Origin: Kordiimonas sp. SCSIO 12603
GTDB taxonomy: Bacteria; Pseudomonadota; Alphaproteobacteria; Sphingomonadales; Kordiimonadaceae
Assembly (NCBI RefSeq): GCF_024398035.1
Contig: NZ_CP073748.1
Span: 611,501-675,500, forward strand
Direction of reading: 5' to 3'
Length of the DNA stretch: 64,000 bases
Part shown: one piece after another, positions 416 to 57,879 of the stretch
How positions within the stretch are numbered: position 1 is the first letter of the stretch
Layout: each line of letters begins with the position of its first letter
Program-made: the position numbers and the translations under genes
The notes under the pieces: model-generated
Databases searched by the model: none
Seen by the model: the letters and a program-made list of their open reading frames with translations, nothing else
What the model was told of the DNA's origin: nothing

Positions 416-1573
416 TTATGCCCAACCAATTTTTTTATATTGGTTACATAAAGTGTGATCTTTGCGGAAACTGTTTGGCCTTCTGGTTCTAAAAGTTTTC
501 CAGCCAGAATTAAATTCGGGAAAATGTCTGTATTCGACAAGGTTACTTAGATTGACATCATTCTTCATGCCGGGAATTCTGTGTATATGCCATAGATGAG
601 CATCCTTACACATGGAAGGTTTTAGCGCCCACTTTTTTGTCGGGAGTTTATGAATTTGTGAATAAAAATAATTGGAGTAATGTCGATTTTCTTCGGGGAT
701 TGAGAAATCTGTACCGCCTTCTTTTATTGTCCATACACCTGTAAACTCTAGATACTTCTGAGAAGTTTGATCGAGTAAATCCGGTATAGCTATATTGTCT
801 TCACATACTATCAATTCATCAACATCTGCGTTGATAACAGTGTTCGCTTTTTCCAAATAACGCCAGCGTGCGTGTTGTAATGCATTGATTTGACAAAAGG
901 CTAATCGGCCAGTCCAATTATCTGCCAACCTCGGTCCGTAGGGAAAAAACCAATCAATAACTCTTACTGTCTGCAGGCCTTTAATATCAGACAAAATGCT
1001 TAGTATATCTTCGCCGGAATAATTGGGGGCGTTATTGTTGTATAATATCAGGGCATTAACCTTGTGCGATTTTACATAAAACTCTACCCAGTTCTTGATC
1101 CATTGTAGGTTATCAAATTTTATCATGGTTAGGAGTACGTTTTTGTTTTTAAACGCATCATGTTCATTGGCATTCGGTTTAATCAGAAATTTGGAACCAG
1201 ACTTTAACTGGAAGATATAGGCATCTTGTTTGTTGATTGGTTTGAAAGAAATCAGGCTGCATTTTTTTTGGTGAGTCTGTTTTTCGAATTGAATTATTTG
1301 TCTTGTTGATGGGCAAATTAGTGAGGTTTCCGTAATTTCATTTTCCAGATTCATGAAATTGGGACCATGGAGAAGAATTTGGTCTTGTCTTGTATAATAC
1401 CCATCATAAAACAGGGTATGAGAATCAAAGTTCTTTTTGAAGTTCCCATCTACGTAGGATTCGGGAATGGGTGCATGCCGCAGTGGTTCGGATATGCCGT
1501 CAAGCATACATGATTGCAACGATGAAGCACCTATGTGCTGAAAATCTCGGCGCCTACGAATAAAGTTGAGCAT
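416..1573 (-). CDS. Glycosyltransferase, family 92 / GT2-like
   Basis: A cytoplasmic protein of about 385 residues with no signal peptide. The central part reads LLTMIKFDNLQWIKNWVEFY, then LILYNNNA, then NADVDELIV. This is the arrangement of GT92/DUF23-type glycosyltransferases: a conserved entry strand, a 'YDNNS'-like loop, and a DxD-type metal and nucleotide-sugar site. The conserved HxIHR region near the C-terminus (LWHIHRIPGMK) also fits. The acceptor and sugar are unknown, and no other glycan genes flank it. I chose the ATG at 1571-1573. A TTG four codons upstream is possible but has no better ribosome site. A 217-bp gap separates it from divergent argG. Confidence 0.7.
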   Translation of the reverse strand: MLNFIRRRRDFQHIGASSLQSCMLDGISEPLRHAPIPESYVDGNFKKNFDSHTLFYDGYYTRQDQILLHGPNFMNLENEITETSLICPSTRQIIQFEKQTHQKKCSLISFKPINKQDAYIFQLKSGSKFLIKPNANEHDAFKNKNVLLTMIKFDNLQWIKNWVEFYVKSHKVNALILYNNNAPNYSGEDILSILSDIKGLQTVRVIDWFFPYGPRLADNWTGRLAFCQINALQHARWRYLEKANTVINADVDELIVCEDNIAIPDLLDQTSQKYLEFTGVWTIKEGGTDFSIPEENRHYSNYFYSQIHKLPTKKWALKPSMCKDAHLWHIHRIPGMKNDVNLSNLVEYRHFPEFNSGWKTFRTRRPNSFRKDHTLCNQYKKIGWA

Positions 1574-1728
1574 TTTCTTATACAAAATAATTGCTTAGAT
1601 GATGAAAAGTTAGGGTGAGTGGAATTTTTTCGCAATTAGTATTTCATGTAACATAAAGCGGAAGATGCTCATTTTGAACAGAAGTGATAAAAAACTAAAG
1701 CTAATTGAAACTTTATAAAAGCTCTTGT

Positions 1729-1756
1729 TTGACGCGAGCGATCCTGTGCCTATACT
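1729..1756 (+). promoter_or_regulatory. Sigma-70-type promoter of argG
   Basis: A TTGACG -35 box (1729-1734) is separated by 16 bp from a TATACT -10 box (1751-1756). It lies about 45 bp upstream of the argG start codon, so the leader is short. GGAG at 1791-1794 is the ribosome-binding site. No ARG-box-like palindrome is obvious. Confidence 0.7.
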
Positions 1757-1802
1757 CCGCGCATTCATTGACATTATGTCATCATTTCTTGGAGTTAATT
1801 AA

Positions 1803-3035
1803 ATGTCGGAGCAAATCAAAAAAGTTGTGCTCGCCTACTCAGGCGGTTTGGACACAAGCATCATCCTTAAATGGCTACAGGTAACATACGGCTGTGAAGT
1901 TGTTACGTTTACCGCTGATTTAGGCCAGGGTGAAGAGCTTGAGCCTGCACGACGAAAAGCGGAAATGCTCGGCATCAAAGATATCTTCATTGAAGACCTG
2001 CGCGAAGAATTTGTGCGCGATTATGTATTCCCGATGTTTCGTGCGAACACGGTTTATGAAGGTCAGTATCTTCTTGGTACATCAATTGCTCGCCCGCTTA
2101 TTTCAAAGCGGCAGATTGAAATTGCCAAAGAAGTTGGTGCGGATGCAGTTTGCCACGGCGCTACAGGCAAAGGAAACGATCAGGTTCGGTTCGAGCTTGG
2201 CTATTACGCGCTTAATCCAAACATCAAGGTGATTGCGCCTTGGCGTGAGTGGGAGCTAAACAGCCGTACAGCACTTATTGATTTTGCTGAAAAGCACCAA
2301 ATCCCAGTGCCAAAAGATAAGCGCGGAGAAAGTCCGTTCAGTGTGGATGCAAACCTTCTGCATACGTCATCTGAAGGTAAGGCGCTTGAAGACCCATGGA
2401 CGGCTGCAGAAGAGTATGTCTACGCCCGTACAGATAATCCGGTAACAGCGCCGGATGAACCAGAGTATATCGAAGTGGAGTTTGAAAAAGGTGATCCGGT
2501 TGCCATTAATGGTGTGGCGCTTTCACCGGCTGAACTTCTAACCAAGTTAAATGAGCTTGGCAAAAAACACGGTATTGGTCGTCTTGATCTGCTTGAGAAC
2601 CGTTTTGTGGGTATGAAATCTCGCGGTATCTACGAAACACCGGGTGGTACAATTCTGCTTGCTGCGCACCGCGGTATTGAACAGATAACGCTTGATAGCG
2701 GCGCGATGCATCTGAAGGATGAGATCATGCCTAAATATGCAAAGCTTCTCTATAACGGCTTCTGGTTCTCACCAGAGCGGGAGATGATGCAGGCGCTTAT
2801 TGATAAATCTCAGGAATTTGTCGCGGGTACTGTGCGCCTTATGCTCTTCAAGGGCGGAGTGCATGTGGTTGGCCGTAAGAGCCCATACAGCCTTTATTCA
2901 ATGGAACACGTAACCTTTGAGGAAGACAGCGTGTACGATCAGCGCGATGCGGAAGGCTTTATCAAGTTGAACGCCCTTCGTCTCCAGCTTCTCAAGCAGC
3001 GTGGTAACATTCAGGAACCACCAAGCTACGATTGA
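1803..3035 (+). CDS. argG: Argininosuccinate synthase
   Basis: ArgG joins citrulline and aspartate, with ATP cleaved to AMP and pyrophosphate, in the penultimate step of arginine synthesis in the cytosol. The 410-residue length is normal. The PP-loop ATP-binding motif is near the N-terminus ([16 protein letters not shown], residues 10-25), and family motifs [13 protein letters not shown] and GRKSPYSLY are present. It is preceded by a good promoter and ribosome site. The AEC transporter starts 48 bp downstream on the same strand and may be cotranscribed. Confidence 0.97.
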
Positions 3036-3083
3036 AAGTCCCAACGCTAGGACTAGCTAACAAGCTGAAAGGGGAAAGCGCAC

Positions 3084-4034
3084 GTGCTTGAAATCATCAC
3101 CATTGTCGCACCAGTATTTTTACTTATGGTGCTTGGCTATGGTTTTGGGCGCACCAAGCTTTTCCCTGAAGGATCTTCCACAGTATTAATCGCTTACGTG
3201 TGGAACATTGCGATTCCGGCGCTTCTGTTCAGTGCTATTGCGCCGCGCGAGTTGCCGGGGCTTGAACAGATTACCTATATCGGCAGCTATTATCTTTCGG
3301 TTTATGCCATCTATATAGCTGCCGTATATCTCTCGCGCTGGATGTTTAAACTAACACTCGCCGAGCAAGGTGTTTTTGCCTTCGCAACGGTGTTTGGGAA
3401 TGTGGGCTTTATTGGAATTCCGATTGTGGAAGGCGCCTACGGTGAAGAAGGCTTACGCTTTCTCCTGATGCTGATGAGCTTCCACAGCTTCACCCTTATT
3501 CCAGTGACAACCATCCTTGTGGAACGTGCGAAGAATGTGGCTGGGGGCGCTGGTATGATGCAGCGTACGTTTGCTAGTATCCGCCAAAACCCCATTATTT
3601 TATCGCTCTTTTTCAGTCTGCTATGGTCAGCTTTTGGGTTGCCGTTTCCTTATTGGCTTGAGCGTTTGTTTGAGCTTCCCGCCCAGTCAGCGGCGCCTGT
3701 TGGGTTGTTTGCGGGTGGGCTTGCGCTTTCCCGGGTGAAGATTGCGGGGGACATGCTCCATTCGGTAGCAGCTGTGGTGTTCAAACTGGTTATGCTGCCG
3801 CTCGCGGTGTTCTCCATCACCAATTTTATCCTTGAGATGCCTAACATCATGGTGGCGGTGGCGACTATTATGGCGGCGATGCCTACGGGTATGATTGTCT
3901 ATAGTTTTGGTGCGCAGCAGCAGGTGGGAGCCCGGCGCGCCGCGACAGCTGTTCTGATCTCAACCGCTTGTTCTTTCCTTACCATTTTCCTTATCCTTGC
4001 TTTCCTGAGGGAACAGGGAATGGTGCCAGTTTGA
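3084..4034 (+). CDS. AEC family transporter (auxin-efflux-carrier type)
   Basis: An integral membrane protein of 316 residues with about ten hydrophobic segments in two blocks around a hydrophilic centre (residues about 150-165), the layout of the AEC (PF03547) family. The N-terminus (VAPVFLLMVLGYGFGR) and the GNVGFIGIPIV motif near residue 112 are typical. Bacterial members move small organic acids such as malate or malonate, but the substrate cannot be read from sequence. The start is GTG at 3084, preceded by a strong GAAAGGGGAAAG ribosome site. Its stop overlaps the next start (TGATG). Confidence 0.85.
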   Translation: MLEIITIVAPVFLLMVLGYGFGRTKLFPEGSSTVLIAYVWNIAIPALLFSAIAPRELPGLEQITYIGSYYLSVYAIYIAAVYLSRWMFKLTLAEQGVFAFATVFGNVGFIGIPIVEGAYGEEGLRFLLMLMSFHSFTLIPVTTILVERAKNVAGGAGMMQRTFASIRQNPIILSLFFSLLWSAFGLPFPYWLERLFELPAQSAAPVGLFAGGLALSRVKIAGDMLHSVAAVVFKLVMLPLAVFSITNFILEMPNIMVAVATIMAAMPTGMIVYSFGAQQQVGARRAATAVLISTACSFLTIFLILAFLREQGMVPV

Positions 4035-47856: not shown

Positions 47857-49128
47857 CTATCTTCCTAAAAATACTTTAGATGTTTTATGGTTACAGTGTT
47901 TGTGGAGTATATTTTTATCCATGGTAAGCGCTCGGTTAATCAAGTTATTTACTCGATAGAGTTCTTCTTTTTGCCGAACTTTCATACGCTTATTTTCTCG
48001 TTGAAGCTGTTGACGCTCATTAAGTTGTTTAAGGATAATGGTATCCTTCTGTTGTTGGTGTTCTTTCGCTTGCTGCCATTCTCTGAACTGAGCTTCTTTC
48101 TTGCGTTGTGTTGTTTTGCCAGACAGGAAATCCCATACGCCAGCTAGGCCTTTTCTTGTTTGAGCAGCGTTGTGATGCTTGATCAGTTCCCGCTCTTTTT
48201 GTTGGCGTTTAGCTAATGACTGCCTTGTCAGTTTTTGTTGCTTGGCAAGAATGAATACTTTTTCCTGAAGGATGCTTTTCTGTGTATGGTGGTTTTGCTT
48301 TTGTTGTTTGATCAGCTTGTTCAGATTTGGTGTTATGCGTTTCTTGAATGTGGCTTTGACTTCATCCACTGATGGCAATTTTTCAGGATCACCTAGGCGT
48401 TGTTTTACTTCTTTGGTTTTCACACCTGCGTATCTTGCTATTGAATATACTTCACCACGGTAATCAACAGCGACAAAGCCACGTTTGTCGCCCTTAGCTA
48501 ACATGAAGCCGTGTTCTGATAGAGCAGCATTGAGTGCTTTAGCGCTATCTGAATGTTGCCATGCAGATTGGAATATCTGTTTTATCTCTCGTGGGTCACG
48601 GCCTACCCGTAGTGCTTGTTGCCACTCAGCAAGGCCAAAGTTGGTTGGATCACGTAAGCTTGGGTCTCTGTGGCCATCAGGAAGCTTCCAGCCATGTTCC
48701 AGATACAGTTCTTTTGATAGTTCTGTCAGGCGGCGTTTATAGAAGGGGAGATTAACAGCCTTAAGCTTGTCATCCTCAATGCCAATGCGTGACCAGACCA
48801 CATGAGCGTGTCGTCGGCCTTCTTTTTCATGAAATACAATAGCGCGTGGCTGGCCTTCCAAACCGAGACGTTTTTCTACTTCATCAGCCACACGGATAAA
48901 AGCAGGGGTTGCCACCTGTTCATGTGCGGGTGGGTTCAGAGATAGTGAAAACAGATATTGTTTACATTTGGTGGCTTTGGATATGGCATGTGCTTCATCA
49001 AATGCCCCTTGCAGGTCATTGGCAATAAAGCCTCGCATTTCATGAAGTTCAATATGTTCGTTTTCTTCTTTCATCAAATGGGCGGCAAGCTCACGCCCGC
49101 CACCCCTTTGACTAGCTTTTAAGATCAT
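47857..49128 (-). CDS. Relaxase / mobilisation nuclease
   Basis: 423 residues. The relaxase domain (about 1-260) begins MILKASQRGGGRELAAHLM. Its metal-binding HxH motif is RRHAHVVWSRIG (about residues 105-116), followed by LPFYKRRLTELSKELYLEHGW. The rest is a long, basic, glutamine-rich coiled coil (about 270-400). It would nick and pilot a strand at an oriT on this element. It begins 4 bp inside mobC (ATGA). No oriT is obvious next to it. Confidence 0.88.
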   Translation of the reverse strand: MILKASQRGGGRELAAHLMKEENEHIELHEMRGFIANDLQGAFDEAHAISKATKCKQYLFSLSLNPPAHEQVATPAFIRVADEVEKRLGLEGQPRAIVFHEKEGRRHAHVVWSRIGIEDDKLKAVNLPFYKRRLTELSKELYLEHGWKLPDGHRDPSLRDPTNFGLAEWQQALRVGRDPREIKQIFQSAWQHSDSAKALNAALSEHGFMLAKGDKRGFVAVDYRGEVYSIARYAGVKTKEVKQRLGDPEKLPSVDEVKATFKKRITPNLNKLIKQQKQNHHTQKSILQEKVFILAKQQKLTRQSLAKRQQKERELIKHHNAAQTRKGLAGVWDFLSGKTTQRKKEAQFREWQQAKEHQQQKDTIILKQLNERQQLQRENKRMKVRQKEELYRVNNLINRALTMDKNILHKHCNHKTSKVFLGR

Positions 49129-49635: not shown

Positions 49636-50541
49636 TTACTGTATTTCTTTCACCACGTTTTTGATCACATCAGCGATGCGCGTGTATGCATCGGCTTTGC
49701 CTACATCTTTACGGGAAACAAGCCCAATGGTGCGGTAGATATGCTTGTTCTTTAATGGTCTTACCATCACTTCGCTGTTCGCTGAGATTTCTGATTTGGC
49801 GTAAAGCTCGGGTAAGAAAGTTACTCCCATCCCCATCCCTACCATTTGTCTCAGTGCGTCAAGGCTGGTGCCAAGATAATCACCAGAAACAACTGCTTCA
49901 AAATCATCACAGAGATAGCGGATTTGCTCATGCATATGATAGCGTTGATCAAGGGACAACACGAGTTCGTTCTTCAGGTCCGCAGGGCTCACTTCTTTCT
50001 GGCTGGCGAACCTGTGATCCCGCGCATGCGCAAGAAGAAGACGTTCACGGTATAGCTCTGTGGTGGCCAGTTGTTCATGCTGAATGGGTAGTTGAGCGAG
50101 AATGATATCATGCTCCCCTTCCGCCAGTTCGCGTTCCATCTCTCTGGGATCAACTTCACGAATATAAAGCTTGAGATCAGGGTAATCTTTGTGAAGCCGC
50201 TGCACGACCTTTGGCAGGATATAGGGGCCTAGTGTTGATTTTGTGCCAAGCCTGATGGTGCCAGCCAGCGCATGTTTGCCAGCCTCTGCCACATCCCGTA
50301 ATCCTTGTACGCGGAGAAGGATATCTTTTGCCCGCTCCAGCACTTCCCGTCCCACAGGGGTGAAAAACACGCCACTACGGCTCCGTTCCACCAATCTCAC
50401 ATCAAGAGTAGTTTCCAGATTCTGGAGTTGAACACTAAGCGAAGGCTGGCTGATACCGCAAACGGCCGCTGCTTTTCTGTAATTACGGGTTTCATCCAGT
50501 GCCGCAAGATACTGCATCTGTTTCAGGGTAACGGCGTTCAT
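49636..50541 (-). CDS. LysR-type regulator, OxyR-like without the peroxidatic cysteine
   Basis: 301 residues from the ATG at 50539-50541. A longer ORF upstream would include the operator. The HTH lies in the first 65 residues (LKQMQYLAALDETRNYRKAAAVCGISQPSLSVQLQNLE). The effector domain matches OxyR in TKSTLGPYILP, REVDPREMERELAEGEHDIILAQLP and MVGMGMGVTFLP. In E. coli OxyR the disulfide pair is Cys199/Cys208. Here the aligned stretch RYHMHEQIRYLC keeps the second cysteine but has His for the first. It may therefore sense something else or act by another route. It is chromosomal, ending 3 bp from the element's right repeat. Confidence 0.85.
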   Translation of the reverse strand: MNAVTLKQMQYLAALDETRNYRKAAAVCGISQPSLSVQLQNLETTLDVRLVERSRSGVFFTPVGREVLERAKDILLRVQGLRDVAEAGKHALAGTIRLGTKSTLGPYILPKVVQRLHKDYPDLKLYIREVDPREMERELAEGEHDIILAQLPIQHEQLATTELYRERLLLAHARDHRFASQKEVSPADLKNELVLSLDQRYHMHEQIRYLCDDFEAVVSGDYLGTSLDALRQMVGMGMGVTFLPELYAKSEISANSEVMVRPLKNKHIYRTIGLVSRKDVGKADAYTRIADVIKNVVKEIQ

Positions 50542-50555
50542 CAAGGCTACTTCTT

Positions 50556-50576
50556 TTGATAGTTTTTTTATATCAA
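50556..50576. promoter_or_regulatory. LysR operator between the regulator and the exporter locus
   Basis: The perfect repeat TTGATA-N9-TATCAA contains the classic ATA-N9-TAT (T-N11-A) box. It extends rightwards with CATA and TATG at 11-bp spacing (to about 50594), like the four-part OxyR site. It lies 14 bp upstream of the chosen LysR start and 80 bp before the 69-codon ORF. Confidence 0.7.
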
Positions 50577-50656
50577 AAAACATATTTTATTTATGTTGAA
50601 CAATCAATCTGGTTTCCCATTTCAATCGTATCGGCAGAGAAAGAAAGAGAAACACA

Positions 50657-50944: not shown

Positions 50945-52693
50945 ATGCAAAACCCATCATCCGCAGCTTCTCCGCAGAAGTCGGTTTCTGATTTATGGCA
51001 TTTTATCCGCAGTTTGCTGCGGGATGAAAAGCAGTTCTATTGGCTTGCCATCATCTACGGTATCGGTATCAGCTTGCTTACGTTGGCGGTGCCGATTTCA
51101 GTACAGATGTTGATCAACACCGTTGCGAACACGGGCCTTAAAACCCCGCTTATCGGGCTTTCAGTCACGCTGTTTGTGCTCTTGATGGTATCGGGGTTGT
51201 TGAATGCGCTCAGGATTCATTTGATGGAGCTGTTTGGCAGACGGTTTTATGCGCGCCTTGTGGCAGAAATTACCCTTAAAACCTTATATGCCCAGAACCC
51301 GTTTTTTACAGATGCAGGCAAAAACACGCTTTTTAATCGGTATTTCGATATCGTAACGGTGCAGAAGGCAGTGCCTTATCTATTGATTGGTGGTTTCACC
51401 ATTATTCTACAAGCTCTAGTAGGGTTTACGATTGTATCCCTGTATCACCCGTTGTTTCTGGGATTTAATATCGGGCTTGTGCTACTTATCTGGGCGGTAT
51501 GGGGTGTTTGGGGTAATCGTGCGATGCTGAGTGCAGTGGCGCTTTCTCACACCAAGCATAATGTGGCGGGCTGGATTGAAAGTCTTGGTGCATCTAACGG
51601 CTATTATAAATCCCGTAAGCATATTGAACGTGCGCTTGAGCAGAGCGATAAGAAAACGGCTGATTATATCAATAGTACCAAGCATCATTTTAAATATACC
51701 TTTTCACAGGCACTGGCGTTTCTGGTGATTTATGCACTGGCCAGCGCTCTGCTTCTTGGTATCGGCGGCTGGCTGGTGATTAATGGTGAGCTTTCCCTCG
51801 GCCAGCTTGTGGCAGCTGAGCTTATTCTTTCAGCAGTATTTTACGGTATTTCCCAACTGGGTGATTATCTTGCGAGTTTTTATGATCTTACAGCCGCAAC
51901 GGAAGAACTGGCACATTTTTTTGATGTGCCACAGGAAGTTCCAGCGGGCACGCTTACTCCGCGCAAAGGCGCAAAAGACCTGATCTTCGCACAAGCCAGC
52001 GGTTTTGCCCGGCATGAGCATGTAACCTTTAATCTGGAGATCAAAGCCGGTGCTTCAATTTTCTGTGCTGCTCCCAATGCTGCCGTTCAGCGTCTTTTTA
52101 CAGATTTTCTGAAGCACCATGAACGCCCCCACCACGGGATTGTAAGCTTCACTGGCACGGATGTGCTGGATATTGAAGTGCATAAGCTTCGTCAGCTTAT
52201 CACCATCCTTGATCGGCCAACTCTCATCCCTGGTACCATCAGAAACTTCCTGAAAGCTGCTGAGTATGAAGGGCAAACTATACAGCCACTTGAGGCCATT
52301 AAAATAGTAGGGCTTGAAAGCACCATCCAATCCCTTTCTGATGGCATGGATACGCAGCTTTCACTTACAGGAGCGCCGCTTTCGCTTGTAGAAGTGTTGA
52401 AGCTTAAATTGGCAGCCGTCCTTATTGCTGAACCGCAAGTGCTTGTCTTGACGCAGCTGTTTGATGCGCTACCTGCGCCAGTGCTTGAACGCACGCTTAC
52501 AGCTATAAAAGCGAACACAGGAGCTTCCATTCTCTACTTCAGTAACCGTATCTCAGCCTGTGGCTTTGATCAGTTCATGTTAATGGCGTCAGACACGCAG
52601 CAGATCATCGAAAAACCGGAGGATTTTTTCATGCTTCGGGACCGCCCTTTCAGCTCTCAACCTCGGAACCAAACACAAGAGTTGGCATCATGA
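50945..52693 (+). CDS. ABC exporter with a degenerate (inactive) ATPase domain
   Basis: 582 residues. Residues about 1-335 form a normal type-1 exporter membrane domain (six hydrophobic segments, from FYWLAIIYGIGISLLTLAVPIS). Residues about 345-575 keep the ABC ATPase length and layout but not its chemistry. The Walker A slot reads CAAPNAAVQRLF with no GxGKS/T. The signature slot reads LSLTGAPLSLVEVLKL, not LSGGQ. The Walker B slot reads VLVLTQLFDAL, so the catalytic Glu and the Asp are lost. The switch His is Asn (FSNRIS). The reading frame is intact and followed by overlapping HlyD and TolC genes, so it looks maintained and not decayed. How it is energised is open. Confidence 0.8.
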   Translation: MQNPSSAASPQKSVSDLWHFIRSLLRDEKQFYWLAIIYGIGISLLTLAVPISVQMLINTVANTGLKTPLIGLSVTLFVLLMVSGLLNALRIHLMELFGRRFYARLVAEITLKTLYAQNPFFTDAGKNTLFNRYFDIVTVQKAVPYLLIGGFTIILQALVGFTIVSLYHPLFLGFNIGLVLLIWAVWGVWGNRAMLSAVALSHTKHNVAGWIESLGASNGYYKSRKHIERALEQSDKKTADYINSTKHHFKYTFSQALAFLVIYALASALLLGIGGWLVINGELSLGQLVAAELILSAVFYGISQLGDYLASFYDLTAATEELAHFFDVPQEVPAGTLTPRKGAKDLIFAQASGFARHEHVTFNLEIKAGASIFCAAPNAAVQRLFTDFLKHHERPHHGIVSFTGTDVLDIEVHKLRQLITILDRPTLIPGTIRNFLKAAEYEGQTIQPLEAIKIVGLESTIQSLSDGMDTQLSLTGAPLSLVEVLKLKLAAVLIAEPQVLVLTQLFDALPAPVLERTLTAIKANTGASILYFSNRISACGFDQFMLMASDTQQIIEKPEDFFMLRDRPFSSQPRNQTQELAS

Positions 52694-53706
52694 CTACAGA
52701 GCGTACGCAGGCCTATTTCAAAACGCTTGAAAGTATTCAGCCACCAAAGGTGATGAGAGCAGTAGCAATTATGATAGCCACTGGTCTCATAGCAGTTATT
52801 CTATTTTTGGTTTTCATGCCGTGGGTACAAACCACTTATGGCCGCGGCAGCATTATCGCCCTTAGCCCAAATGACCGGGTACAGGAAATCAATGCACTTG
52901 TTTCCGGCCGCATTCAGAAATGGTTTGTAGAGGATGGCAGCTATGTGAAAGCCAATGACCCTATCCTGCAGATTGTGGATAATGATCCTAATTTCCTTGA
53001 ACGTCTGCAAACAGAGCGGCAACAGGTTGCCTTTAAACTGGAAGCTAACCAGAACGCCATGAAAACCGCAGAACTGGATCTGGCTCGTACCGAAAAGCTT
53101 TTTAATGAAGGCTTGGCCTCTCGCCGTGATTTTGAAGCTGTGCGTATTCGAGTAGAGGATATGAAAAGCAAGGTTGCTGAGGCTTCTGCCCAACTAACAA
53201 GGCTTGATGTATCCCTGTCTCGCAGTTCTGTGCAATTTGTTCGTGCACCAAGAGACGGTGTGATCTTGAGAGTAAATGCTGGTGATAGCTCCACCTTCTT
53301 AAAGGCTGGTGATGTGGTGGCTACTTTTATCCCAGCGAATGCAGAACGGGCTGTAGCCCTTTACATCGATGGTAGAGATATCGCACTTGCGCGCATCGGA
53401 GATAAAGTGCGCCTGCAGTTTGAAGGGTGGCCGAGTATTCAGTTCAGCGGTTGGCCATCAGCGGCTGTGGGGATTTTTGGTGGAGAAATTGTAGCGATTG
53501 ACCCAACGGCGGACCCAAACGGCCTCTTCAGGGTATTGGTGCAGGAAGATAAATCTGACCCACATCCCTGGCCCGATAGCTCATATGTCAGATTTGGATC
53601 GAAAGCCCGCGGTTGGGTAACCTTTGAAACTGTATCAGTTGGCTATGAAGTATGGCGGCAGCTCAATAACTTTCCACCTGAATTCCGCAAAACATTCACC
53701 CCTTGA
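52690..53706 (+). CDS. HlyD-family periplasmic adaptor
   Basis: 338 residues. One membrane anchor (AVAIMIATGLIAVILFLVF, residues about 24-43) precedes a biotinyl-lipoyl-like beta domain (LVSGRIQKWFVEDGSYVKANDPILQI), an alpha-hairpin coiled coil (about 95-180), and the second half of the lipoyl fold (FVRAPRDGVILRVNAGD). It connects the inner-membrane exporter to the TolC-like channel. It starts 4 bp inside the exporter gene (ATGA). Confidence 0.9.
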   Translation: MTTERTQAYFKTLESIQPPKVMRAVAIMIATGLIAVILFLVFMPWVQTTYGRGSIIALSPNDRVQEINALVSGRIQKWFVEDGSYVKANDPILQIVDNDPNFLERLQTERQQVAFKLEANQNAMKTAELDLARTEKLFNEGLASRRDFEAVRIRVEDMKSKVAEASAQLTRLDVSLSRSSVQFVRAPRDGVILRVNAGDSSTFLKAGDVVATFIPANAERAVALYIDGRDIALARIGDKVRLQFEGWPSIQFSGWPSAAVGIFGGEIVAIDPTADPNGLFRVLVQEDKSDPHPWPDSSYVRFGSKARGWVTFETVSVGYEVWRQLNNFPPEFRKTFTP

Positions 53707-53717
53707 GGCACGCCGAT

Positions 53718-55154
53718 ATGTTTTATGTTCTTAAAAAGCTGAGCATTGTAACGGGTATGCTAGCGGTGCTGCATATGTCTTTCGGGGCGTTGGCTCAGGA
53801 TAAACCATTAACGCTTGAAGATGTTTTGGCTTCTTCGGTACGGAATGTACCTGAAATCTTGCTGGAAATTGCAGAAAAGAATGAAGCCGCAGGCTACGCG
53901 CAGGCAGCCCAAGGCGCATTCGATGTAAATTTAGGCGCTAGTGGTTTCAGTCGGGCAACAGGTTTCTGGAGTGGCTCTGTCGTTGAACTTGAAGCTAAAC
54001 AAAACATTGGTGTTTACGGGGCACAAGTTTACGGCAAGTACCGTATCTCTGATGGTCGGTTCCCAATTTATGAAGATGAATATTTCACCAATACACTTGG
54101 TGAATTTAAAGTGGGCACGCTCTTTTCGCTTCTACGGAACAGGGATATTGATGAAAACCGTTTTAATATCCGGGATACGGCTCTAGCCCAAAAGCAGGCT
54201 GAAACCGATATCCTGTTCCAGAAAATTATTATTCAGCAGCAGGCTACCCAAGCCTATTGGAACTGGGTTGTGACGGGGCATCAGTATGGTGTTTATCGGC
54301 AGCTTTTGCAGATAGCAAATGAGCGGCAAAAAGCCCTTGAGATTCAGGTAAAAGAAGGCGCGGTGGCTGATATCTTTATTCTGGAAAACAGACAGAATAT
54401 TACGCGCCGTGAGAAATTGGTAACCGAAGCAAAACAGCGCTTCCAGGCCTCGGCTATCAGGCTTAGCTATTATCTTCGAAATAAGGAAGGTACTACACGA
54501 TTGCCTGAAGCGTATGAGCTCCCGGATGTTACTGTTTTTGATCAGCAAGAAAGCGTTGTTTTTCCGTTGATTTTACGGCCTGGTCAGTTGCTTCAGAACA
54601 GGCCGGAGCTACAACAGTTAAAACTTGCTATTGAACGGCTTAATCAAACTGTGAATTTACGGGAAAATGATCTTGCACCGCAACTGGATCTGTCGCTCGA
54701 ACTATCAAGGGATTTTGGCTCTATTGCAGAAGGTGGTTCATCACGTGCATCTACAGATACTGTTGTTGGCCTCCAGTTTTCTATCCCGCTTGGCCAGAGA
54801 AAGGCTAAGGGCAAACTAACTGCTGCAAAAGCAAAACGGAAGGCACTAAGGCAGAAAACCAGAATGGTGCAGGATAAAATTCAACTTGAGCTTAAACGAG
54901 TAACGCTTGATCTTAAAGTGTCTGTGGAAATGCTTGAACTTGCGAAACAGGAAACCAGACAATCCAGACTTCTTGCAGATGCAGAACAGGTGCGTTTTCA
55001 AAATGGTGCCAGTGACTTCTTTATACTGAATATTCGGGAAGAAAGAGCCACAACCGCGCAAATTGAAGAGCTTAAAGCTCACCTTGTGCAGCGTACCTCA
55101 CTTGCTAATTTTTATGCCGCTTCCATGAATTTGCAGAAGTTAGGTTTGTTTTAG
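53718..55154 (+). CDS. TolC-like outer-membrane efflux protein
   Basis: About 478 residues from ATG 53718, with GAGG nine bases upstream. The TTG at 53703 would precede the signal peptide (MFYVLKKLSIVTGMLAVLHM, cleavage after ALAQ). Two TolC repeats follow: LTLEDVLASSVRNVPEILLE, YGKYRISDGRF, then QLDLSLELSRDFGS, VGLQFSIPLGQRKAKGKL. It forms the exit duct for the preceding HlyD and ABC proteins, with which it forms one operon. Confidence 0.92.
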   Translation: MFYVLKKLSIVTGMLAVLHMSFGALAQDKPLTLEDVLASSVRNVPEILLEIAEKNEAAGYAQAAQGAFDVNLGASGFSRATGFWSGSVVELEAKQNIGVYGAQVYGKYRISDGRFPIYEDEYFTNTLGEFKVGTLFSLLRNRDIDENRFNIRDTALAQKQAETDILFQKIIIQQQATQAYWNWVVTGHQYGVYRQLLQIANERQKALEIQVKEGAVADIFILENRQNITRREKLVTEAKQRFQASAIRLSYYLRNKEGTTRLPEAYELPDVTVFDQQESVVFPLILRPGQLLQNRPELQQLKLAIERLNQTVNLRENDLAPQLDLSLELSRDFGSIAEGGSSRASTDTVVGLQFSIPLGQRKAKGKLTAAKAKRKALRQKTRMVQDKIQLELKRVTLDLKVSVEMLELAKQETRQSRLLADAEQVRFQNGASDFFILNIREERATTAQIEELKAHLVQRTSLANFYAASMNLQKLGLF

Positions 55155-56298: not shown

Positions 56299-57879
56299 TT
56301 ATTCGAGCTGGATCAAATACCGCTCTATGTCATTCCGCTTTTGGCGTTTTGCTTCTTTAAGGGCGGTGGTATGGCGTTCTTGATGATTACGTTCTTCTAG
56401 GCGGCCAACGGCTTTCGTATCAGCCCCCGCGCGTACCAGCATTTCAACGATTTCCAGTTTACCAGATGATACGGCTGCTATCAGGGCAGAGCCTTCATCA
56501 TCAACAGGCATATTCGGATCAGCCTTATGGGCGAGAAGAAGTGAAACCATATCCGGATTAGCTATCTTCGCGGCTGTTGCAAGCGGGCTGGCATCCATTT
56601 CAGGCACAAGTGCGTTAATTGTTGCTCCGTTCTTTAGAAGCTGGGCAACTAGCGCAATATCTTCCCTTTCAACGGCTGATAAAAGCGGAAAACCCTTGCC
56701 TCTGGCAGAGAGATTAGTTTTAGCCCCGTGTGCCATCAGAGTTTCTGCCATTTTTGTATCACCACGGGATGCAGCAATAATAAGCGGTGTGCCGTAAGGT
56801 GAGATACTGATATTTGGATTTACACCGCTTTTAAGAAGTTTTGCGGCTTCTATAGTATCACCTTTTTGAGCTGCTGAAATCAGCGCCAGTTGGTCTGCGG
56901 AGGCGAAGGTGGCAATGGAAGGCGTTATTTGTCTTAACTGCTTGTTCCAGTCTGGCAGGACAGCGGCAAGAGTAATGATGGAAATTGTGCCCAATGCTAG
57001 AAGGTTGTTCACTTTTTTAGGGCCATTTAGGACTTCCAGCTGAATAGCCTGAATACGTTCTACAAATGGGTGTTTTTCCCGGCCCGTCCAAAAACAGTTG
57101 AGGGCGTTTGGAACAAGTTCGCGGTGGGCGTTCAAAAGGGTGTTTGCATACCGTTTGCGTGCCTTAGGGAATTGCCGGAGCACAGCTGCATCACACGCCA
57201 GTTCCTGATCCATAAAGAGTTTCCCAGCTGCATAATGAACCAGTGGATTGAACCAATTGATGAGCTGGAGCAGGGCGGTAATACCATTAACAAGTGGGTC
57301 TCTATGTTTTTGGTGCACCCGCTCATGGGTAAGGATCAACCGCTGTTCTTCGGAACTATATTTGGTGTCAAAATGTGGTGGGACGACGATTTTAGGTTTG
57401 ATCAGGCCTATGAGTGCAGGACCAACGGCTTCTGTATTTGATTGATAATACCCTTTGCCTGAGTTCTTGATTGGTGAAAGTAATGTTTTCAGGCGTCTTT
57501 GTCTGATAGCAAAAATAGCGGCTGATAACACGAAACCTAAGACCCATAGTGTTATTGCTGGCGTAGCAATGCCGCTGGGGAAAAAGCTGGAAATTGTTTG
57601 CTGGATGCTTGATGTCGCAACAGGGGTTGGAACAACTTCTTCAAGAAGAAATTGAGCATAGATCGGTTGTGAGGCTGCCTGTTGCTCCATGAACAGTGCG
57701 GCAAAAGGCAGGAAGTATATCAATAGGGAAAACGGCACAGCGAGCCACACCATATAACAAGCTGATGCCCCCAAATGCCGACGCACCTGTTTTCTGATCA
57801 TCAGCACCAGAAGGATTGCTACTGATAAAACCACGCTGAAGGAAATAAGTGTTTCCAAGGTACTATTCAGCATCTTCAA
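56299..57879 (-). CDS. M56 (BlaR1/MecR1-type) peptidase fused to ankyrin repeats
   Basis: 526 residues. Four or so N-terminal membrane helices surround the metallopeptidase loop with HExxH as LILTHERVHQKHRDPL and downstream FMDQELACDAAVL, the M56 signature. A further hydrophobic segment (LLALGTISIITLAAVL) crosses the membrane. The periplasmic part is about five ankyrin repeats (from QLALISAAQKGDTIEAAKLL through VEMLVRAGADTKAVGR), not a penicillin-binding sensor. It probably responds to a signal by cleaving the BlaI repressor encoded upstream. The signal read by ankyrins is unknown. The start overlaps the repressor gene by 17 bp. Confidence 0.88.
   Translation of the reverse strand: MKMLNSTLETLISFSVVLSVAILLVLMIRKQVRRHLGASACYMVWLAVPFSLLIYFLPFAALFMEQQAASQPIYAQFLLEEVVPTPVATSSIQQTISSFFPSGIATPAITLWVLGFVLSAAIFAIRQRRLKTLLSPIKNSGKGYYQSNTEAVGPALIGLIKPKIVVPPHFDTKYSSEEQRLILTHERVHQKHRDPLVNGITALLQLINWFNPLVHYAAGKLFMDQELACDAAVLRQFPKARKRYANTLLNAHRELVPNALNCFWTGREKHPFVERIQAIQLEVLNGPKKVNNLLALGTISIITLAAVLPDWNKQLRQITPSIATFASADQLALISAAQKGDTIEAAKLLKSGVNPNISISPYGTPLIIAASRGDTKMAETLMAHGAKTNLSARGKGFPLLSAVEREDIALVAQLLKNGATINALVPEMDASPLATAAKIANPDMVSLLLAHKADPNMPVDDEGSALIAAVSSGKLEIVEMLVRAGADTKAVGRLEERNHQERHTTALKEAKRQKRNDIERYLIQLE

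Follow-up and report, generated by a model that had tools for sequence, protein, structure and literature searches.

The window analysed here is a stretch of 64,000 nucleotides (nt) from contig NZ_CP073748.1 of the marine bacterium Kordiimonas sp. SCSIO 12603, and the system in question is a set of three genes at positions 50945 to 55154. They encode an ATP-binding cassette (ABC) exporter-like protein, an HlyD-type membrane fusion protein and a TolC-type outer-membrane efflux protein. The ABC protein belongs to a real, selected and widespread exporter family with a pseudo-ATPase in place of a working nucleotide-binding domain (NBD). The loss of ATP hydrolysis in the family is well supported by comparison of the motifs. 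The wider reading, drawn from sequence and analogy, is that a conserved trans-envelope exporter has lost ATP hydrolysis and that an ion-driven membrane domain is the likeliest replacement; we give it an even chance. A preliminary description had reported the motif loss in the window copy. To this the analysis adds that the clade and its replacement residues are conserved, that some relatives are only partly degenerate and that one copy naturally lacks the NBD. The features of the system are as follows.

50945-52693, + strand: ABC-exporter-like gene, 582 amino acids (frame list, Pfam, alignment, AlphaFold2)
51797-51826, + strand: segment LGQLVAAELI of transmembrane helix 6 (TM6), with invariant Gln287 and Glu292
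51977-52624, + strand: pseudo-NBD part of the ABC gene; Gln382 at the Walker A Lys position, Arg383 at the Ser/Thr position, Asp423 at the Q-loop Gln position
52690-53706, + strand: HlyD-type membrane fusion protein gene, 338 amino acids (4-nt overlap with the ABC gene; HlyD_3)
53703-55154, + strand: TolC-type outer-membrane efflux protein gene, 483 amino acids (4-nt overlap with the HlyD gene; OEP)

The window ABC protein is composed of a six-helix membrane domain (about residues 14-326) and a folded NBD (about residues 345-560) without ATPase motifs. In the alignment with the intact exporter L017, Walker A reads APNAAVQRL for GPSGSGKST, the Q-loop TILDRPTLI for VVLQENILF, the signature GAPLSLVEV for GANLSGGQR, Walker B VLVLTQLFD for ILILDEATS and the H-loop ILYFSNR for VLIIAHR. 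The claimed loss of Walker A, the signature, Walker B and the H-loop is borne out by this alignment, and the Q-loop residue is gone too. Identical replacements are found in the closest relative, a Kordiimonas laminariae copy with 99% identity to the window protein (the same protein as L022), and the window frame is intact. The description was also right that full length and reading frame are kept and that the membrane domain is present: the gene is an open frame of 582 amino acids and ABC_membrane scores above its cut-off in Pfam (34.2 bits against 28). That family alone was reported, with no ABC_tran (PF00005) match at an E value of 0.001. In the adaptor and duct genes, said to overlap or follow directly and both in fact overlapping by 4 nt, the scores are 51.4 bits against 22.2 for HlyD_3 and 91 against 22 for OEP. 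The start given for the TolC gene is TTG, and an ATG lies five codons further in, at 53718. The tripartite efflux gene set of inner-membrane pump, membrane fusion protein and outer-membrane factor is complete, as known here from the genes alone.

The top NCBIfam scores of the ABC protein are type I secretion and bacteriocin exporters, every one far under its cut-off (HlyB 83.5 bits against 725.55, LssB 79.8 against 693.1, PrtD 63.1 against 510.15). A phmmer search of solved structures matched ABC exporters, with P-glycoproteins on top and HlyB and ComA aligned along most of the length. The NBD is predicted to fold. An AlphaFold2 model calculated with 65 family sequences gave a mean predicted local distance difference test (pLDDT) score of 86 for the window protein and block means of 83-97 over residues 341-560, taken ten residues at a time in 22 blocks. 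The structure prediction proposed at the outset as a check was thereby carried out, and it returned a folded NBD at high confidence. The top matches of the model by VIA-align 2 were tied: TmrAB (6rai; Z 27.7, root-mean-square deviation (rmsd) 3.0, 551 residues aligned) and the HlyB/HlyD complex (8dck; Z 27.1, rmsd 3.0, 545 aligned). A full-length structural match to PCAT1 was obtained as well. The system resembles the HlyB, PrtD and LssB type I exporters in its membrane-domain fold, its gene triplet with HlyD and TolC and its full-length structural match. It differs from them in lacking the ATPase motif set, in falling far under the NCBIfam cut-offs and in an adaptor that scores higher as a resistance-nodulation-division (RND) adaptor (78.3 against a cut-off of 94.9) than as type_I_hlyD (51.8 against 208.65), both under cut-off.

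The motifs were counted in 98 non-identical copies, the window included, of which 97 bear an NBD; L056, L057, L069, L102 and L115 were dropped as identical to others. The full ATPase motif set was present in 0/97. The Walker A Lys position is occupied by Gln in 59 copies, Glu in 19, Asp in 12, Arg in 5 and Lys in 2. The Ser/Thr position beside it is Arg (R383) in 91/97, and in 86/97 an Arg here is preceded by Gln, Glu or Asp. At the Q-loop Gln position there is Asp (D423) in 84 copies and Glu in 6. The Walker B Asp position carries Ser, Thr, Asn or Gly in 96 copies and Asp in one, and the H-loop His position carries Asn in 51 and His in one. Further replacements are conserved elsewhere in the NBD (R424 in 94, P478 in 97, K488 in 92 and D507 in 93). 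Close relatives with normal Walker motifs were searched for and were not found; even the first signature Gly is present in 0/97. The magnesium ion of a working NBD is contacted both by the Walker A Ser/Thr and by the Q-loop Gln, so an Arg-Asp pair at these positions would fill the site. Arg or Lys at 383 is paired with Asp or Glu at 423 in 88/97 copies, both columns being too constant for a covariation signal.

The NBD is under purifying selection. The ratio of non-synonymous to synonymous substitution rates (dN/dS) had a median of 0.165 for the NBD (0.048-0.451), below 1 in 60/60 close pairs, and of 0.128 for the membrane domain in the same pairs, which share sequences and are thus not independent. 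The medians over 1476 pairs (0.40 for the membrane domain and 0.59 for the NBD) were set aside because these pairs are mostly saturated. Between the window and K. laminariae copies the ratio is about 0.010 in the membrane domain and about 0.055 in the NBD. The check on motif conservation among homologues proposed in the preliminary description thus found no full set, replacements that are themselves conserved, and an NBD under selection. These results bear on the alternative of a decaying pseudogene. The motif loss in the window copy would fit it, and single copies do decay, as in the plasmid locus L197 (7001-9667), where the match to the family gene breaks off next to an IS3 transposase gene. 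However, the degenerate motifs are found family-wide in open frames and the NBD dN/dS is well below 1. The pseudogene reading is rejected for the family as a whole, and we regard it as extremely improbable.

Sixteen close homologues (E up to 3.9e-88) were found in 59 related genomes, the window's own included. Their alignment contained 15 degenerate NBDs, that of the window among them, and one copy without an NBD. In an even sample of the window's order, the membrane domain was detected in 81/396 genomes and 17/84 genera. A class sample gave 3/385 genomes, all three in the window's order, with at most three candidates scored per genome, and a phylum sample of 398 genomes had the HlyD gene in 11, of which six belong to that order. 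The family is rarer outside the window's order in the samples taken. A fully intact sister clade was not seen among the matches in a phylum sample (6/299 genomes) or an order sample (6/250), at most four or five candidates being scored per genome. A scan of named species genomes returned at least 553 matching stretches, possibly including other ABC exporters, and the family loci from named species are the best 80 of these 553, so the family statistics lean to closer relatives. The best 80 come from Kordiimonas, Eilatimonas, sphingomonads, erythrobacters, Parvularcula and Hyphomonadaceae, and also from the Gammaproteobacteria (Halieaceae, Woeseiaceae and one Xanthomonas). Fifteen plasmid records matched at 1e-40, all from sphingomonad or erythrobacter genera. 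A plasmid-borne operon of the family is SARO_RS19820, RS19815 and RS19810 on pNL2 of Novosphingobium aromaticivorans DSM 12444. At G1076:C2:1621818-1622516, the family match begins only at residue 99 in a 484-residue frame, a possible N-terminal truncation.

In one genome (G024) the NBD is absent. The protein (L036) has 333 amino acids and stops after the membrane domain; its gene overlaps the HlyD gene by 4 nt, and TolC follows. It is the sole NBD-less copy of the 98, and ABC_membrane is the only Pfam family reported for it at an E value of 0.05. Its tree neighbours are full-length motif-less proteins (SH-like approximate likelihood ratio test, 100). Lys222 is found in 97/98 copies and is Gln only in this one, as might be expected if Lys222 touches the NBD. 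The AlphaFold membrane-domain model of the NBD-less copy had a mean pLDDT of 83.5. No SbmA entry was among the 50 Foldseek matches listed for this model, which excludes nothing. G024 is the only genome of its genus in the set examined.

INTERMEDIATES

The divergent relatives L053 and L189-L193 retain the motifs to differing extents. L053 and L189 keep the P-loop and the Walker B Asp, and in both the signature glycines, the Q-loop Gln and the H-loop His at its column are gone; L053 has a His one residue past that column. L190 keeps the Walker B Asp and has lost the Walker A Lys. L191-L193 are without the motif set, with a Lys at the Walker A position in two of them. HlyD and TolC matches adjoin the gene in all of L189-L193, and L053 is accompanied by HlyD and a TolC-like frame of 599 amino acids. 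In the membrane-domain tree, the family and its divergent relatives fall on one side of the starred branch (99), opposite the seven intact exporters, and L053, L189 and L190 lie outside the rest of the family (98). The motif pattern on this tree suggests that the signature, Q-loop and H-loop were lost first, then the P-loop, and then the whole NBD in one lineage; since the tree came from a quick search and its branches are long, this order is only a suggestion. L190 (6936-9266) has a long N-terminal extension in which no Pfam family was reported at an E value of 0.05.

Several residues of the membrane domain are strictly conserved. Glu292 in TM6, Gln287, Gln255, Lys204, Ser201 and Gln54 are present in 98/98 copies, and Glu292, Gln255 and Lys204 also in 5/5 of the divergent relatives L189-L193. 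Because the named loci had been found with patterns including GQLVAAEL, conservation was checked in sets found without those patterns, and it held in 23/23 and in 30/30 order-survey loci, the sets partly overlapping. In seven intact exporters the Glu292 column holds N, N, I, N, M, V and A. Apart from Glu292, no acidic residue placed inside the membrane is strictly invariant. In the mechanism that we favour, a homodimeric membrane domain would alternate without ATP, driven by a proton or other ion gradient, with Glu292 as the first candidate for ion coupling. The pseudo-NBD would serve as a scaffold or gate, in which an Arg383-Asp423 salt bridge may stand in place of Mg-ATP.

The analogy comes from the membrane domains of LmrA and MsbA and from SbmA. 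MsbA without its NBD is reported to efflux ethidium still, a pH gradient alone being sufficient (PMC4979069), and LmrA lacking the NBD is presented as a secondary translocator for which Glu314 of TM6 is important (PMC6155054, PMC2704374). In both cases ion gradients are reported to power substrate movement by an ABC membrane domain without an NBD, but the proteins were made in the laboratory by truncating ATP-driven transporters; in the present family the decay of the NBD, and its absence from one genome, are natural. The SLiPTs (SbmA/BacA), which are secondary peptide transporters, are proposed to descend from ABC transporters after NBD loss and are described as importers that have a glutamate ladder but neither an NBD nor coupling helices (PMC13316013). 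SbmA/BacA, as described there, share with the proposed system an ABC-type membrane domain working without ATP. They differ from the family, which keeps an NBD in 97/98 copies together with an adaptor and a duct and has Glu292 rather than a ladder. The SbmA/BacA Pfam family was not matched by the window protein (E value 0.001) or by L036 (E value 0.05). SbmA/BacA (natural) and the truncated LmrA and MsbA (engineered) are precedents for the principle and not for a trans-envelope exporter. No title or opening of an abstract in the open-access literature, to which the search was confined, pointed to such a family, subscription papers being outside its scope.

Several observations pull the other way from an ion-driven exporter. 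The case for ion coupling is made by analogy and conserved residues. Two residues away from the Glu292 column, the window genome's MsbA-like protein carries a Glu of its own. An equivalence of Glu292 with LmrA Glu314 was rejected, residue counting placing Glu314 near window residues 313-316, and the full glutamate ladder described for SbmA was not seen in the window protein. The NBD is kept in 97/98 copies and so matters for something. PF00005 is still matched by 13/65 members at 0.001, which leaves a recognisable sequence relation to NBDs in part of the family, and L053 and L189 may bind nucleotide through their P-loops. An assembly error could explain the NBD-less copy, known from a single draft genome of 250 contigs and 93% completeness, and Foldseek matches to the model of this copy were weak (best E value 2.3e-5, template modelling score 0.58, rmsd 11.9).

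A gated channel or facilitator is a rival explanation. The membrane-domain dimer with adaptor and duct would then be a regulated passive path, with the pseudo-NBD as its gate and no energy coupling. The NBD degeneration and the NBD-less copy fit this equally well, and CFTR (ABCC7) is described as an ABC protein acting as a channel (PMC7756269). On the other hand, the membrane domain is strongly constrained, as its median dN/dS indicates, and a passive pore has no obvious need of an invariant Glu in TM6, which is a weak argument. We consider the channel rather unlikely. It is also conceivable that the pseudo-NBD binds nucleotide or another ligand as a non-hydrolytic switch, so that the system is regulated and not powered by binding. 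An NBD that is selected and carries conserved new residues, and the P-loop kept in L053 and L189, would agree with such a switch. The acidic residue or Gln followed by Arg at the Walker A Lys-Ser/Thr pair of most copies argues against it, as does the genome that does without the domain, and we judge it quite improbable.

In the remaining explanation, the protein would work as part of a heterodimer, or of some other complex, with an ATPase-competent subunit encoded by another gene, which may be a second ABC half-transporter or an NBD made as a separate protein. Heterodimeric exporters, TmrAB among them, commonly have degenerate sites, which have been reviewed for heterodimeric and full-length transporters (PMC7756269, PMC8277102). 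For the partner search, the window protein was used on 103 loci (five repeats), two intact exporters on 16 loci and four intact NBDs on 109 loci; loci are cut short where contigs end, and 81/103 are at least 14 kb. The four NBDs found another ABC-type ATPase in three of the 109 loci: an MsbA-type exporter (L134), UvrA (L054) and an ABC-2-type ATPase some 7 kb away (L050). In L134 (3937-6831), from Xanthomonas euroxanthea, a gene for an MsbA-type exporter with intact motifs and then a LysR gene stand directly upstream of the family gene. Its NBD shares 61.8% identity with the MsbA-like protein of the window genome, and both genomes encode such a protein. Nevertheless, this neighbour occurs in 1/109 loci, and no partner ABC gene recurs in the 109, separate NBDs elsewhere in the genomes lying outside the search. 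A 591-residue gene upstream in L031, suspected as ABC, proved to be dihydroxy-acid dehydratase.

Besides the exporter, the window genome encodes five ABC_membrane proteins. As read from the frames, each retains Walker A and Walker B, one has an FSAGQ signature and one has Gln at the H-loop. Two look MsbA-like and Atm1-like, and three stand beside export or maturation genes of their own: a PrtD-like protein with an HlyD-like gene and two peptidase-bearing proteins, one near an HlyD-like gene and one beside a radical-SAM-like gene. In G024, only two ABC_membrane proteins are present besides the exporter copy, three in total. TmrAB and TM287/288 have degenerate NBD residues and the same fold as the window protein, but they keep a catalytic site with a partner, whereas no partner recurs near the family. 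The degenerate subunit of a heterodimer also usually retains Walker A. We therefore hold the partner to be improbable. Among the three options first offered for a dead NBD, the second ABC partner is made unlikely by the neighbourhoods and the NBD-less genome, and a different energy source and a gated channel are indistinguishable by sequence.

The neighbourhoods confirm the exporter triplet itself. HlyD is matched in 103/103 loci and TolC in 96/103, the other seven being six near a contig end and the divergent L053. In 52 loci of less than 75% identity, the recurrent neighbours were HlyD (52), TolC (48) and LysR (13); other clusters were opposite-strand operon frames or confined to few loci. 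The window's own LysR gene is divergent to the ABC gene.

49636-50583, - strand: LysR-type regulator gene, divergent to the ABC gene (Pfam and neighbourhood recurrence)

It is probably the regulator of the exporter operon. Of the 109 loci, 24 have a homologue of it, and in 21 the distance to the ABC gene is at most 4.5 kb. In L049, L051 and L052 there is an opposite-strand LysR-type gene of another kind (NhaR-like by eye), at most about 1 kb upstream of the ABC gene. No recurrent neighbour fit to be a protein substrate was found in the 52 loci, substrates encoded elsewhere lying outside the search. The nearby LysR gene and the RND-like adaptor weakly favour a small-molecule substrate over a protein. 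A sigma-70 promoter scan was uninformative, with two sites against a mean of 6.3 in shuffles.

Other genes were seen near members of the family. A DabA-type gene and a NuoL/DabB-like gene adjoin or lie near the triplet in 4/109 loci from three unlike lineages (L195 1362-3914, L126 4351-6903, L124 about 1064-3520 and L193 1827-6502). DabA, a probable inorganic carbon transporter subunit, was confirmed by Pfam for L195 and L193, and a functional link of this gene pair to the exporter triplet is possible. The plasmid locus L196 has sugar-importer permease genes downstream. In the window, a gene at 56299-57879 (- strand) encodes a BlaR1-type M56 peptidase fused to C-terminal ankyrin repeats, and the small gene adjoining it is BlaI-like by eye. 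A MobA/VirD2-like relaxase gene with a small adjoining gene lies at 47857-49128 (- strand) and, on a single contig of 3.85 Mb, suggests an integrated mobilisable element.

The question of whether ABC membrane domains can do without ATP has so far been debated mostly on the evidence of engineered truncations (PMC4979069, PMC6155054, PMC2704374). With a conserved family that seems to have made this change naturally, its partly degenerate relatives and an NBD-less end point, the ATP-free question becomes directly testable. Present annotation hides this pseudo-ATPase family, since the same protein is named "ABC transporter ATP-binding protein" or "ABC transporter transmembrane domain-containing protein" among the plasmid records. 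Tentatively, and at something short of an even chance, the family may be a natural ion-gradient-driven trans-envelope exporter derived from an ABC transporter, a primary-to-secondary conversion separate from that of SbmA/BacA, with the steps of loss visible and a pseudo-NBD locked by an Arg-Asp pair. The finding bears on the ways in which tripartite exporters can be energised.

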